From the NCBI RefSeq assembly GCF_000421185.1, contig NZ_ATWJ01000009.1, forward strand, positions 312,868-376,867: a stretch of 64,000 bases of DNA, read 5' to 3'. Position 1 is the stretch's first letter, and every line of letters starts with the position of its first letter. Origin of the DNA: Ornithinimicrobium pekingense DSM 21552 (lineage in GTDB: Bacteria > Actinomycetota > Actinomycetes > Actinomycetales > Dermatophilaceae). Positions 55,466-58,953 of the stretch are shown here, piece by piece. The notes under the pieces are model-generated. The model was given only the letters and a program-made list of their open reading frames with translations. It had not been told where the DNA came from and did no database searches. The position numbers were made by a program, and so were the translations under genes.

Positions 55466-56599
55466 TCAGCCGGTCCACTCCCCCGTGCGCCACGCCCGCT
55501 CGAGCACGGCGGTGTAGGGACGGGTGTCCCAGTCGTGCCCGCTCACCCACGCGTCGTCGCCGTAGGTGTCGGCGTAGCGGCTCGCGTCATCGCACAGCAG
55601 CGTGACGATCGACCCGGCCCTGCCCTGCTCGCGCAGCTCGCACGCCAGGCGCAGCACGCCGTACATCGCCGTGCCGGTGGACGGGCCGCAGGAGAGGCCC
55701 AGCTCCTCGCGCAGGAACCGCATGGCCGCGACCGAGGCGGCGTCGGGCACCCCGAGCATGCGGTCGACGACGCCGGGGACGAAGCTGGGCTCCACGCGGG
55801 GGCGGCCGATGCCCTCGATGCGCGAGCCGCACGGTGCCCTGCCCGGCGCCTCGCCACCCCCGAACGCCGGCAGGAACGCCGACCCCTCCGGGTCCACCAC
55901 GCACAGCCGGCTGGCGTGCCCCTTGAGCCGCACGTAGCGCCCGATCGTGGCCGACGTGCCGCCGGTGCCGGCGCCGACGACGAGCCACTCGGGCACCGGG
56001 TGCCGCTCCAGCGCCATCTGCTCGAAGATCGACTCGGCGATGTTGTTGTTGCCGCGCCAGTCGGTCGCCCGCTCGGCGTAGGTGAACTGGTCCATGAAGT
56101 AGCCGTCGTAGCGCTCCGCGAGCTCGCGGCTCACGTCATACACGGCCGCCGCGTCCTCGACGAGGTGGCAGGAGCCGCCCTCCCGCTCGATGAGCGCGAT
56201 CTTCTCGGTGCTGGTGTCGCGGTGCATGACGGCCACGAACGGCAGCCCGAGCATGCGGGCGAAGTGCGCCTCGCTGACGGCGGTCGAGCCCGAGCTGGCC
56301 TCGATGACGGTCGTGCCCTCGCGGATCGCGCCGTTGCACAGGGCGTGGAGGAACAGCGAGCGCGCAAGACGGTGCTTGAGGCTGCCGGTGGGGTGGGTCG
56401 ACTCGTCCTTGAGGTAGAGGTCGACCTGCCATCCGGCCGGCATCCGGACGTGCACCAGGTGCGTGTCGGCGCTGCGGTTGGCGTCGGCGCGCAGGCGCCG
56501 CACCGCCTCGTCGGTCCAGGCCCGGTCGGCCGGTCGCGGCGGGCGCACGTCGCGCAGCGGCTGCACGCCGGTTGCGGGCGGGGTCTGCTGGAGGCTCAC
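55466..56599 (-). CDS. Cds1-like PLP-dependent L-cysteine desulfhydrase
   Basis: This 377-residue protein belongs to the cysteine-synthase fold. PLP Lys is in [13 protein letters not shown], the Ser/Thr loop in [12 protein letters not shown], and the phosphate loop in [15 protein letters not shown]. It resembles mycobacterial Rv3684/Cds1, which releases H2S from cysteine; that activity is inferred here. It follows a sulfide oxidoreductase and sulfur carriers on the same strand, and also has its own TAGCGT box. Confidence 0.82.
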
Positions 56600-56606
56600 C
56601 CGCCCG

Positions 56607-56612
56607 ACGCTA
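56607..56612 (-). promoter_or_regulatory. -10 box TAGCGT, leaderless
   Basis: The box ends seven bases before GTG 56599, in the 21-bp gap after the DsrE-like gene. The desulfhydrase could thus be transcribed independently. Confidence 0.55.
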
Positions 56613-56620
56613 CCGGCCGC

Positions 56621-57271
56621 TCAGACGAAAACGACCTGGGCGCCCTCGGCGATGTCGATGAAGTCTCCGGCGCTGATAACACCCTCCACGCCCGGGTGCA
56701 GGTCGGCCTCGATCATCTTCATCATGTCGTAGGTCAGCCGGCAGGCGTACATGTGCGCGCCAGAGGCCTGGAGCAGGTCGAGGAAGTCGGGGATCGAGGG
56801 GATCTCCATCTCCTCCATCTGCTTCTTCATCATCCGGGTGGCGAAGCCGGTCATCCCCGGCAGGTTGCCCATCGCCTGCGGCATCGAGACGTGCTCGAGG
56901 CCGGGCCGGAGCCGGCCCAGGTCGGGCATGTGCATGGCGGTGTTGCCCGACAGCGTGAACTTGAGGTTGTCGTAGGTCTTGGTGTTGATGATGTCCAGGC
57001 CCCAGAAGGTGAAGAAGATGTGCACCTCGACGCCCTCGCCCAGCGCGGCGTTGCCCATGATGAGCGCCGGGTAGGCCATGTCCAGGTTGCCCTTGGAGCA
57101 GATGAAGGCCATCTTGCGGGGCCCGGAGTATGCGGCCGCGCCGGTGCCCTGGGTCGCCGTCGCCGCAGCGGTGGCGCCGTTGCCCTGCGGCGCGGGGGTC
57201 CGGCCCCGGTCGCCGAAGTCCGGCATGATGAAGCCCTCGGGGGGCGTGGTGCGGGTGGTGGTCGTGCTCAT
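56621..57271 (-). CDS. DsrE2-like (DsrE/DsrF/DsrH family) sulfur-carrier protein
   Basis: The protein has 216 residues. A Thr/Ala/Pro-rich tail (1-50) precedes the core KMAFICSKGNLDMAYPALIMGNAAL and EVHIFFTFWGLDIINTK. Cys58 in ICSKG and Cys177 in YACRLTYDMM are candidate persulfide sites. DsrE-type proteins pass sulfane sulfur to TusA/TusE partners, and a TusE-like gene stands 30 bp upstream. AGGAGGA precedes the ATG. Confidence 0.85.
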   Translation of the reverse strand: MSTTTTRTTPPEGFIMPDFGDRGRTPAPQGNGATAAATATQGTGAAAYSGPRKMAFICSKGNLDMAYPALIMGNAALGEGVEVHIFFTFWGLDIINTKTYDNLKFTLSGNTAMHMPDLGRLRPGLEHVSMPQAMGNLPGMTGFATRMMKKQMEEMEIPSIPDFLDLLQASGAHMYACRLTYDMMKMIEADLHPGVEGVISAGDFIDIAEGAQVVFV

Positions 57272-57301
57272 GGTGGGTCCTCCTCCTCGTCGGTGGGTGG
57301 C

Positions 57302-57616
57302 TCAGACGCAGCCGACGGGCTTGGGCAGGCCGGAGAGCCAGGCCATCTTCTTGGCGGGCTTGCCGGGGTAGAGGGCGAACAGGGTCTTGATGTCGAAGCC
57401 GCCGACGGTCTGCATGCGCCGCAGGGTCGGGGTGACTCCGGTGGTGGCCGAGTCCTCGCGCATGAAGCGCAGGGTGGCCAGGTGGTCCTCGCTCAGCTCG
57501 AGGTCGATGAGGGCGGCCAGGTCGGTGGCGAGGTCCTCGCTCCAGTCCTCCCTGCGCGTCAGGAAACCCTCGGTGTCGACCTCGAAGGTCCGTCCGTTGA
57601 GCGTGTTGGTGGGCAT
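57302..57616 (-). CDS. TusE/DsrC-like sulfur relay protein
   Basis: This 104-residue protein has the DsrC/TusE pattern: LNGRTFEVDTEGFLTRREDWSEDLA and the C-terminal arm SGLPKPVGCV. Cys103 is the conserved penultimate Cys. The second DsrC Cys, ten or so residues upstream, is absent, so it is TusE-like. It starts eight bases after the flavoprotein stop. Confidence 0.85.
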   Translation of the reverse strand: MPTNTLNGRTFEVDTEGFLTRREDWSEDLATDLAALIDLELSEDHLATLRFMREDSATTGVTPTLRRMQTVGGFDIKTLFALYPGKPAKKMAWLSGLPKPVGCV

Positions 57617-57624
57617 CGCGGCTC

Positions 57625-58863
57625 TCACTCCTTCGGCCGGCGCTTGCCGGCCATCGACATGTGGCTGGAGACGGGCAGGCGGCGGCCGGGGAGCAGCATC
57701 TTCCAGTAGATCTGCTCGAACGCCAGCTTGCCCAGGTGGTTGACCCGTGAGGGCTTGAGCAGCGTCATCGGGCCGGCGACCGGGACCGGGAAGGTCCCCT
57801 TGAGCGGCTCGGTGTCGTAGTTGAAGTCGAGCAGCATCGCCTGGCCGCGGCCGGACTCGACGAAGCAGTTGGCGTGCCCGTCGAAGGAGTTGGGCAGCGG
57901 TCGGCCCTGCGTGGCGGCGACGAAGTTGTCGACGAACTCCTCGGTGGCGAAGTGGGCCACCGACCCCGCCTTGGAGGTCGGGATGTCGCTGGCGTCGCCG
58001 AGCACGAAGATCCGCTCGTCCACGACCGAGCGCAGGGTGTGCTTGTCGACGGGGACGAAGCCCGCGTCGTTGCCCAGGCCGGAGTCCGTGACGAACTGCT
58101 GGCCGACGTTGGGCGGCACGGTCACGAGCAGGTCGAACGGCAGCTCTCGCCCGTCGTAGGCGACGAGCCTGTGCTGCTCGTTGTCGATCCGCTCGACCGC
58201 GAAGTCGGCGGCCAGACGGATGCTGCGGTCCTTGAGCAGCCCGCCGAGCTCTGCCGAGGCGACCGGCTTGGTGAAGGCGCCGTCGAGCGGGGTCACGTAG
58301 GTGATGTCGACCTTGTGCCGGACGCCCTTCTTGCGGAAGTGGTCCTCCACGAGGAAGGCGAACTCCAGCGGGGCCACCGGGCACTTGATGGGCATCTCGG
58401 TGATGTGCACCAGGATGCGGCCGGCGGTGAACCCGGCGAGCGCCTCCTTGAGGGCGACCGACCCCTCGTAGGTGTAGAACTCGTGGACCTTGTCCCGCCA
58501 CAGCGCGCCGTCGGCCATGCCGTCGACGAGGGTCGGGTCGGGGCGGGTGCCGGAGGCGATGACCAGCCAGTCGTAGGACAGGCGGCGCCCGTCGACCAGC
58601 TCGACCTCGCGCTGCTCGCGGTGCACGCGCGCGATCGCGGCCTCGACGAAGTCGACGCCGTCGTGGAGGAGCTCGCGGCGGTCCTTGACGACGCGCTCCG
58701 GCTTCATCCAGAACGGGATGAACAGGTAGCCCGGCTGGTAGCGGTGCTGGGTGTCCTGGTCCACGACGGTGATCGACCAGGCGTCCTGGTCGAGGGTCGC
58801 GCGCAGGTGGTTCGCGGCCATGGTGCCGGCGGTCCCGGCCCCGAGGATGAGCAGCTTTTCCAT
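57625..58863 (-). CDS. Sulfide:quinone oxidoreductase-like flavoprotein
   Basis: This 412-residue protein has FAD-binding LILGAGTAG at residues 5-13, LVIASGTRPDP, GDASDIPTSKAGSVAHFATE and a hydrophobic C-terminal region suited to membrane association. Cys161 (IKCPVAP) and Cys332 (ANCFVES) match the spacing of the redox cysteines of SQR and flavocytochrome c sulfide dehydrogenase. It should oxidise sulfide to persulfide or polysulfide. It is the first gene of the sulfur operon. Confidence 0.87.
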   Translation of the reverse strand: MEKLLILGAGTAGTMAANHLRATLDQDAWSITVVDQDTQHRYQPGYLFIPFWMKPERVVKDRRELLHDGVDFVEAAIARVHREQREVELVDGRRLSYDWLVIASGTRPDPTLVDGMADGALWRDKVHEFYTYEGSVALKEALAGFTAGRILVHITEMPIKCPVAPLEFAFLVEDHFRKKGVRHKVDITYVTPLDGAFTKPVASAELGGLLKDRSIRLAADFAVERIDNEQHRLVAYDGRELPFDLLVTVPPNVGQQFVTDSGLGNDAGFVPVDKHTLRSVVDERIFVLGDASDIPTSKAGSVAHFATEEFVDNFVAATQGRPLPNSFDGHANCFVESGRGQAMLLDFNYDTEPLKGTFPVPVAGPMTLLKPSRVNHLGKLAFEQIYWKMLLPGRRLPVSSHMSMAGKRRPKE

Positions 58864-58873
58864 GTCTCTCACG

Positions 58874-58889
58874 ATACCCCCTACAGTAT
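58874..58889 (-). promoter_or_regulatory. ATAC-N8-GTAT operator candidate before the sulfide operon
   Basis: ATACCCCCTACAGTAT lies 11-26 bp before the flavoprotein ATG and partly overlaps a CTACA-GTA-TGTAG palindrome (58881-58893). It resembles the C-tract, ATAC/GTAT-flanked operators of CsoR/CstR-type regulators. No regulator gene is nearby. Confidence 0.4.
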
Positions 58890-58953
58890 GTAGTAGAAGA
58901 CCGTTCCGGCCTCCTCGCGGCCAGGTGTGACGGACCAGACACCGGCGCCCGCC

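Follow-up and report, generated by a model that had tools for sequence, protein, structure and literature searches.

Do four adjacent genes in a 64,000-nucleotide stretch of the Ornithinimicrobium pekingense DSM 21552 genome (the whole stretch analysed, hereafter the window) form one sulfur circuit, or a conserved module with a neighbour? The minus strand carries, in transcription order, open reading frames for a sulfide:quinone oxidoreductase (SQR)-like flavoprotein, a DsrC/TusE-family protein, a DsrE2-like protein and a Cds1-like enzyme, with spacers of 8, 30 and 21 bp between successive genes. A sequence-only reading of this DNA had proposed a single operon in which Cds1 releases H2S from cysteine, SQR oxidizes it to persulfide and the two carriers relay the sulfur. 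The coordinates, strand, order and names that it gave to the four genes hold against the open reading frames and the Pfam and NCBIfam models, and neither TusA nor a rhodanese is encoded among the four, as it stated; rhodanese genes exist elsewhere in the genome. Here, we find that SQR–DsrC–DsrE2 is a real, self-standing and widespread module whose most likely task is to convert toxic sulfide into sulfur bound to protein, and that Cds1 is probably a neighbour and not a regular part of it. Taken as a whole, a self-standing sulfide-detoxification module regulated by sulfane sulfur, with Cds1 beside it, is the best explanation of the locus, and we consider it likely to be correct.

Identity of the SQR and carrier proteins

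Families were assigned by Pfam and NCBIfam models with curated cut-offs. The first gene (57625..58863, minus strand; 412 amino acids) encodes a type III-like SQR, which scores 585 bits on NF049943, the model for the selenoprotein subtype of type III SQR (cut-off 525); its top match in both phmmer and Foldseek is human SQR (TM score 0.85; pLDDT of the SQR model 79). The second (57302..57616, minus strand; 104 amino acids), preceded by AAGGAG, encodes a DsrC/TusE-family sulfur carrier that passes PF04358 at 86 bits and TIGR03342 at 67 bits (cut-off 53.5), although the latter model cannot tell TusE from DsrC. The third (56621..57271, minus strand; 216 amino acids) encodes a DsrE2-like (DrsE_2) sulfur carrier that passes PF13686 at 116 bits, and its structural model (pLDDT 73) resembles DsrE-fold proteins, with 3pnx as the top Protein Data Bank match. 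The N-terminal tail of this protein, about 46 residues, is modelled with low confidence; within it (window 57271-57125) lies a PEGFxxPDFGD-like stretch that is retained in the closest relatives and is possibly a docking peptide.

Conservation of the SQR–DsrC–DsrE2 module

A scan of named genomes returned at least 597 pattern matches, at least 593 of them encoding relatives; the best 80 were used, and all counts over 80 loci refer to these. DsrC follows SQR in 79 and DsrE2 is found in 78, the misses (L062 and L097) lying at contig ends just 534 and 77 bases beyond SQR. By their record titles, the 80 loci span Actinomycetota, Bacteroidota, Acidobacteriota, Planctomycetes and other groups. The family of the window was sampled with 59 genomes, its own included, and 24 of these hold a close relative of SQR (identity of at least 56%); SQR matches in 16 further genomes are only remote or short, at identities of 45% or less. 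Among the 23 other holders (L032-L054), DsrC lies beside SQR in 22 and DsrE2, whole or partial, lies near it in 22; L054 is without DsrC and L033 breaks off before DsrE2. The DsrC family was found in 23 of the 59 genomes, all within the SQR holders (23 of 24 versus 0 of the other 35; Fisher's test 1.7e-15, kinship ignored). A search for conserved neighbourhoods, which the sequence-only reading had put forward as a check, thus bears out the SQR and carrier part of its proposal. We did not find this arrangement described in the literature searched, a weak negative with most subscription papers and preprints outside that search.

Variants of the arrangement were also observed. An extra gene stands between SQR and DsrC in 17 of the 80 loci (Actinomycetota, Bacteroidota and others); the sole copy typed, L093 4629-5336, is DUF1641 by Pfam, and a protein of this type may be an SQR partner. 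L054 (genome G001), the sole family holder without DsrC, has a shortened SQR match followed by a partial DsrE2, reflecting either a deletion or an assembly error. In two relatives from the genus, L189 (G062) and L186 (G061), the SQR frame is broken with DsrC and DsrE2 retained, maybe through decay or assembly error.

Cysteines of the three proteins

The three window proteins contain five cysteines in total, two in SQR, one in DsrC and two in DsrE2, and four of the five are invariant. Both SQR residues, Cys161 (KCPVAP) and Cys333 (GHANC), are cysteine in 80/80 loci; Cys103, the penultimate residue (CysA) and sole cysteine of DsrC, is conserved in 79/79; and in DsrE2, Cys177 is cysteine in 78/78, the exception being Cys58 (65/78). 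The type III SQR of cable bacteria uses catalytic Cys159 and Cys339 (PMC13047784), to which Cys161 and Cys333, near in numbering, may be equivalent. A selenoprotein form of SQR carries an HxxU motif (PMC13188914, table), of which HANC333 in the window is the cysteine version. Two candidates for selenocysteine were rejected: the reading frame of the window SQR contains no TGA ahead of its stop and has cysteine at position 333, and in a second SQR-like gene of the genome (G000:C14; 28% identical), the one TGA flagged is where the frame stops, close to the C-terminus.

These residues also bear on whether the flavoprotein has a different substrate, as an NDH-2-like enzyme or a persulfide or CoA-disulfide reductase would, with sulfur flowing in reverse for reduction or cofactor synthesis. 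Its identity to solved SQRs is only about 20-24%, and NDH-2 and persulfide reductase structures match it too. Nevertheless, the top fold and sequence matches are SQRs, both SQR-type cysteines are kept at every one of the 80 loci and the operator described below is of a sulfur-responsive type, so that we regard this alternative as quite improbable.

The dissimilatory two-cysteine DsrC has a second cysteine, CysB, 11 residues before the penultimate CysA. That position is Ala, Ser, Thr or Glu in 79/79 sequences, and the protein is accordingly not of the two-cysteine kind. Could it instead be the TusE of tRNA 2-thiolation, placed in the operon by chance? The single cysteine and the TusE-like C-terminus would suit this, as would the failure of TIGR03342 to discriminate. 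On the TusE equivalog model, however, it reaches 53.5 of 191 bits, and a TusA search of the entire genome of the window, positive in 11 of 14 control genomes, gave no match; on both counts the protein does not qualify as TusE. TusA is also without a match in 5 of the 24 module genomes, and none of the 35 family genomes lacking a close relative of this SQR gave a DsrC match. The chance of a TusE that merely happens to lie here seems to us close to negligible. TusA is nevertheless commoner with the module than without it (19 of 24 versus 11 of 35 family genomes), so it could take part in most relatives.

The operator before SQR and its putative regulon

A predicted CsoR/CstR-type operator, ATACTGTAGGGGGTAT (58874..58889, minus strand), spans positions -26 to -11 relative to the start codon of SQR and differs by one mismatch from ATACC-N6-GGTAT. 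The CsoR of Streptomyces coelicolor (ScCsoR) binds this motif and is released from it by polysulfide; genes for CsoR, a persulfide dioxygenase (PDO), a rhodanese and a sulfite transporter are under its control, and Cys37 and Cys66 are required for sensing (PMC7533328). We scanned up to 150 bp upstream of SQR in 81 regions, namely the 80 loci and the window. The motif occurs with at most one mismatch in 28 of them and with two mismatches in 8 more; for at most one mismatch, shuffled sequences give 0.21 and windows drawn at random from these loci 0.23. A second palindrome, ACTAC-N5-GTAGT or similar, lies beside or over the CsoR-type site in L065, L074, L079, L081, L186-L189 and the window (58881-58896); we take it to recall BlaI/MecI-type operators.

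Genome-wide, the stricter form ATACCC-N4-GGGTAT with at most two mismatches gives 52 sites per strand versus 9 for the reversed control. One of the five sites without mismatch lies 49 bp ahead of a 468-residue metallo-beta-lactamase/rhodanese protein, a probable PDO from its architecture, whose gene is followed by those for a YgaP-type rhodanese and TauE. Two sites with one mismatch precede DUF302 and a CsoR-family gene (G000:C11) whose product has Cys36 and Cys65 and no histidine. This regulator scores far below the cut-offs of RicR (45 of 175), FrmR (35 of 133) and RcnR (20.5 of 138). CsoR-like genes are present in 23 of the 24 module genomes versus 21 of the other 35 in the family. The module is best read as responsive to sulfane sulfur: the operator type is observed, and a repressor would bind there.

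Gene families near these sites recur elsewhere. DUF302 stands beside a CsoR-like gene, sometimes with a thioredoxin or CMD protein, in L068, L070, L075, L080 and L143, and in loci from Nocardioides and Lapillicoccus this pair lies close to the module. L155, one of the genomic contexts with a site free of mismatches, contains a CMD-family gene, and in both L075 and L080 a relative of this gene adjoins the CsoR-like gene.

The site might alternatively answer to a copper CsoR, in which case the module would serve in the response to copper or to thiol stress in general. The motif is similar to CsoR and RicR sites (PMC7533328), and the genome holds two more CsoR-family matches. The same motif, however, also precedes the probable PDO–rhodanese–TauE operon and the gene for the two-cysteine, histidine-free regulator, which lies far under the RicR, FrmR and RcnR cut-offs; we therefore consider copper control very improbable.

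Cds1: neighbour or member

The fourth gene (55466..56599, minus strand; 377 amino acids, GTG start) encodes a Cds1-like pyridoxal phosphate (PLP) enzyme, a likely cysteine desulfhydrase, which reaches 574 bits on NF052478 (cut-off 600; the copy in genome G087 reaches 587). At the 80 module loci, Cds1 is found in none, although flanks of up to 6 kb leave at least 1200 bases past the last module gene in 73 and at least 3000 in 64; genes at these loci, in the genomic operator contexts and at the genus loci were called with a codon-bias script. It is likewise absent from all 23 family loci (L032-L054). Cds1 was found in 18 of the 59 family genomes (E <= 1e-60) and together with SQR in 4 (G000, G017, G032 and G050) versus 7.3 expected (Fisher's test 0.08, kinship ignored); in G017, G032 and G050 the two lie on separate contigs, the SQR contig of G050 being just 3.9 kb. 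It is also rarer alongside the CsoR-like gene (8 of 44 genomes with that gene, 10 of 15 without it), or, counted the other way, the CsoR-like gene occurs in 8 of 18 genomes with Cds1 and 36 of 41 without it. The sequence-only reading had named a lack of co-occurrence in relatives as grounds against its proposal, and for Cds1 that is what these counts give; the four genes as one conserved unit do not stand.

The genus sample comprised 31 genomes. By the DNA matches listed, 9 of them have the module and 9 have Cds1, with 3 having the two together where 2.6 would be expected; diverged copies may escape such matches. The exact four-gene set is confined, within the genomes searched, to these three, G000 (the genome of the window), G087 and G071, where the spacer between DsrE2 and Cds1 is 21, about 57 and 135 bp, respectively. 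A conserved Cds1 operon was rejected on these grounds, having been sought at 80 named loci, at 23 loci of the family and in 31 genomes of the genus and found only in these three genomes. Cds1 adjoins DUF445 in G086, G066 and G083, where no module was found, and in G069, also with no module found, it is one gene (VOC) from DUF445, as in the window. Conversely, in G077, G061, G084, G085, G062 and G078, about 2 to 5 kb separate the module from DUF445, and Cds1 is not there. Cds1 and the module thus use one chromosomal slot next to DUF445, from which their adjacency in the three genomes can follow; it can equally stem from an ancestor that had all four genes, some of them lost later.

Other genes were seen at this slot. 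In several genus genomes, it is bordered by a DUF1905 gene, whose family was assigned by Pfam from the copy in L185. On the opposite strand, a class V PLP protein adjoins the module at L185 4905-6782, with equivalents in L186-L189, in five genus genomes without Cds1; the L185 copy, the only one on which families were run, matches PF00266 and scores 115 of 475 bits on the SufS model.

Cds1 probably has its own leaderless promoter, because its GTG is preceded by no Shine-Dalgarno-like stretch, in contrast to the strong ones of DsrC and DsrE2, and because a TANNNT box recurs before it. In the window this is TAGCGT (56607..56612, minus strand), a putative -10 element 13 nt before the GTG. TANNNT is a mark of leaderless actinobacterial promoters. 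Of 9 Cds1 loci in the genus, 8 have it at -12/-13, and of all 26 loci read, 15 have it at -12 to -14, compared with a base rate of 15 of 3568 ATG/GTG triplets in the window, in a count where starts were selected among candidates and the loci are related to each other. An operator of its own was rejected for Cds1: at six Cds1 loci of the genus that lack the module (L191-L196), there is no site with at most one mismatch.

These data bear directly on the closed cysteine-disposal operon, in which Cds1 would make H2S from excess cysteine, SQR would oxidize it and DsrE2 and DsrC would relay the sulfur. All four genes share a strand, with only 21 bp before Cds1, and wherever the matches listed place Cds1 and the module in one genus genome, as they do in three, the two are adjacent and their order is the same. 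Moreover, Cds1 relieves cysteine toxicity in Mycobacterium tuberculosis (PMC8389258), and in Bacillus licheniformis, cysteine resistance is conferred by a cluster that includes SQR, PDO and a homologue of DsrE (PMC9918477). Against such an operon stand the empty 80 loci, 73 of them with room, the sub-expected sharing of Cds1 and SQR in the family, the negative association with the CsoR-like gene, the TANNNT box without a Shine-Dalgarno-like stretch, and the persistence of Cds1 close to DUF445 in genomes without a module match. We judge it unlikely. The H2S circuit of the sequence-only reading is well supported in its SQR-to-carrier half, through synteny, invariant cysteines and operator type; the half in which Cds1 feeds SQR is the one that the co-occurrence counts speak against, and the cysteine-to-H2S circuit is weakly supported.

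Proposed mechanism

SQR would oxidize H2S and pass the electrons to the quinone pool, with the sulfane sulfur held on Cys161/Cys333, as its family and the invariant residues suggest. Cys177 of DsrE2 may then accept the sulfur from SQR and donate it to Cys103 of DsrC. In cable bacteria, transfer from DsrEFH to DsrC is one-way in vitro, and TusA loads DsrEFH (PMC13293266); the order DsrE2 to DsrC is modelled on this other system. From DsrC, the sulfur could reach the PDO and rhodanese directly or via a small thiol, and sulfite might be exported through TauE. A CsoR/CstR-type repressor that senses sulfane sulfur would bind the observed operator and switch on both the module and the PDO–rhodanese–TauE operon, and in three species, some transcription from the SQR promoter may extend into Cds1. 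We further raise, as possible rather than probable, that this is a phylum-crossing sulfane-sulfur relay without TusA, without CysB and, expectedly, without DsrAB, in which the one-cysteine DsrC is a dedicated acceptor in the order SQR, DsrE2, DsrC and PDO, for detoxification and not for energy-yielding sulfur oxidation or tRNA thiolation.

Several observations weigh against the detoxification module as we describe it. The upstream regions of SQR have three or more mismatches to the motif in 45 of 81 cases, and among eight genus relatives read, a site with at most one mismatch occurs in two only: G071, with no mismatch at the same position (-26), and G078, with one mismatch at -104. Of the others, L185 has no CsoR-type operator upstream of SQR, the G087 motif is one base short in the spacer and L186-L189 share another palindrome. 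By gene calls, the contexts of the other sites without mismatch (L152-L155) show no evident sulfur operon, families having been run only for L155. The genome contains two other CsoR-family matches, to one of which the operator before SQR could answer, and in Thermus a sulfur regulator of the CsoR family recognizes a different motif (PMC10318464), so that ATACC-N6-GGTAT is not universal. The probable PDO passes no NCBIfam cut-off, and the DsrE2-like protein reaches 104 of the 210 bits required by the equivalog model NF047629. We infer the transfer steps, for which the donor in PMC13293266 is DsrEFH loaded by TusA, not DsrE2. Finally, the invariable adjacency of Cds1 and the module in G000, G087 and G071 counts on the same side.

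The DsrC family is familiar chiefly from sulfate reducers and sulfur oxidizers and, as TusE, from tRNA modification. The one-cysteine DsrC of this module is conserved, goes with SQR and lies in a genome where TusA was not found, which offers a clean test of the role of this fold alone. By record titles, the module is carried by many groups of Actinomycetota and Bacteroidota rich in heterotrophs and therefore bears on sulfide handling by ordinary soil and sediment bacteria. The result also corrects a tempting, weakly supported story of H2S cycling.

Comparison with known systems

Several described systems share parts of this arrangement. The S. coelicolor circuit of CsoR, PDO, rhodanese and sulfite transporter has the same operator type, and the window genome has an equivalent-looking PDO–rhodanese–TauE operon and a two-cysteine regulator; the paper contrasts that circuit with SQR-bearing ones, and in its available part DsrE is unmentioned and DsrC was not looked for (PMC7533328). 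The CstR/YrkD cluster of B. licheniformis has in common with our genome SQR, a DsrE homologue (YrkE), a rhodanese-like protein, PDO, TauE and a CstR-like repressor, but it contains a TusA homologue (YrkI) and not DsrC, and its genes form one 11-gene cluster whereas those here are in scattered operons (PMC9918477). For Cds1, the reference is Rv3684 of M. tuberculosis (PMC8389258); at 574 bits, under the 600 of the Cds1 model, the activity of the window protein is predicted. The nearest described operon is the type III SQR–TusA–DsrE2 set of Methylacidiphilum fumariolicum SolV (MFUM_v2_0219-21), which is 1.7-fold up in sulfide-adapted cells (PMC10205796). Both have a type III SQR first, a small carrier second and DsrE2 third; unlike in SolV, a DsrC/TusE-family carrier occupies the place of TusA, itself not found in the window genome. 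DsrC in the TusA position is thus a departure from the described SQR–TusA–DsrE2 operon type, not a new kind of system.

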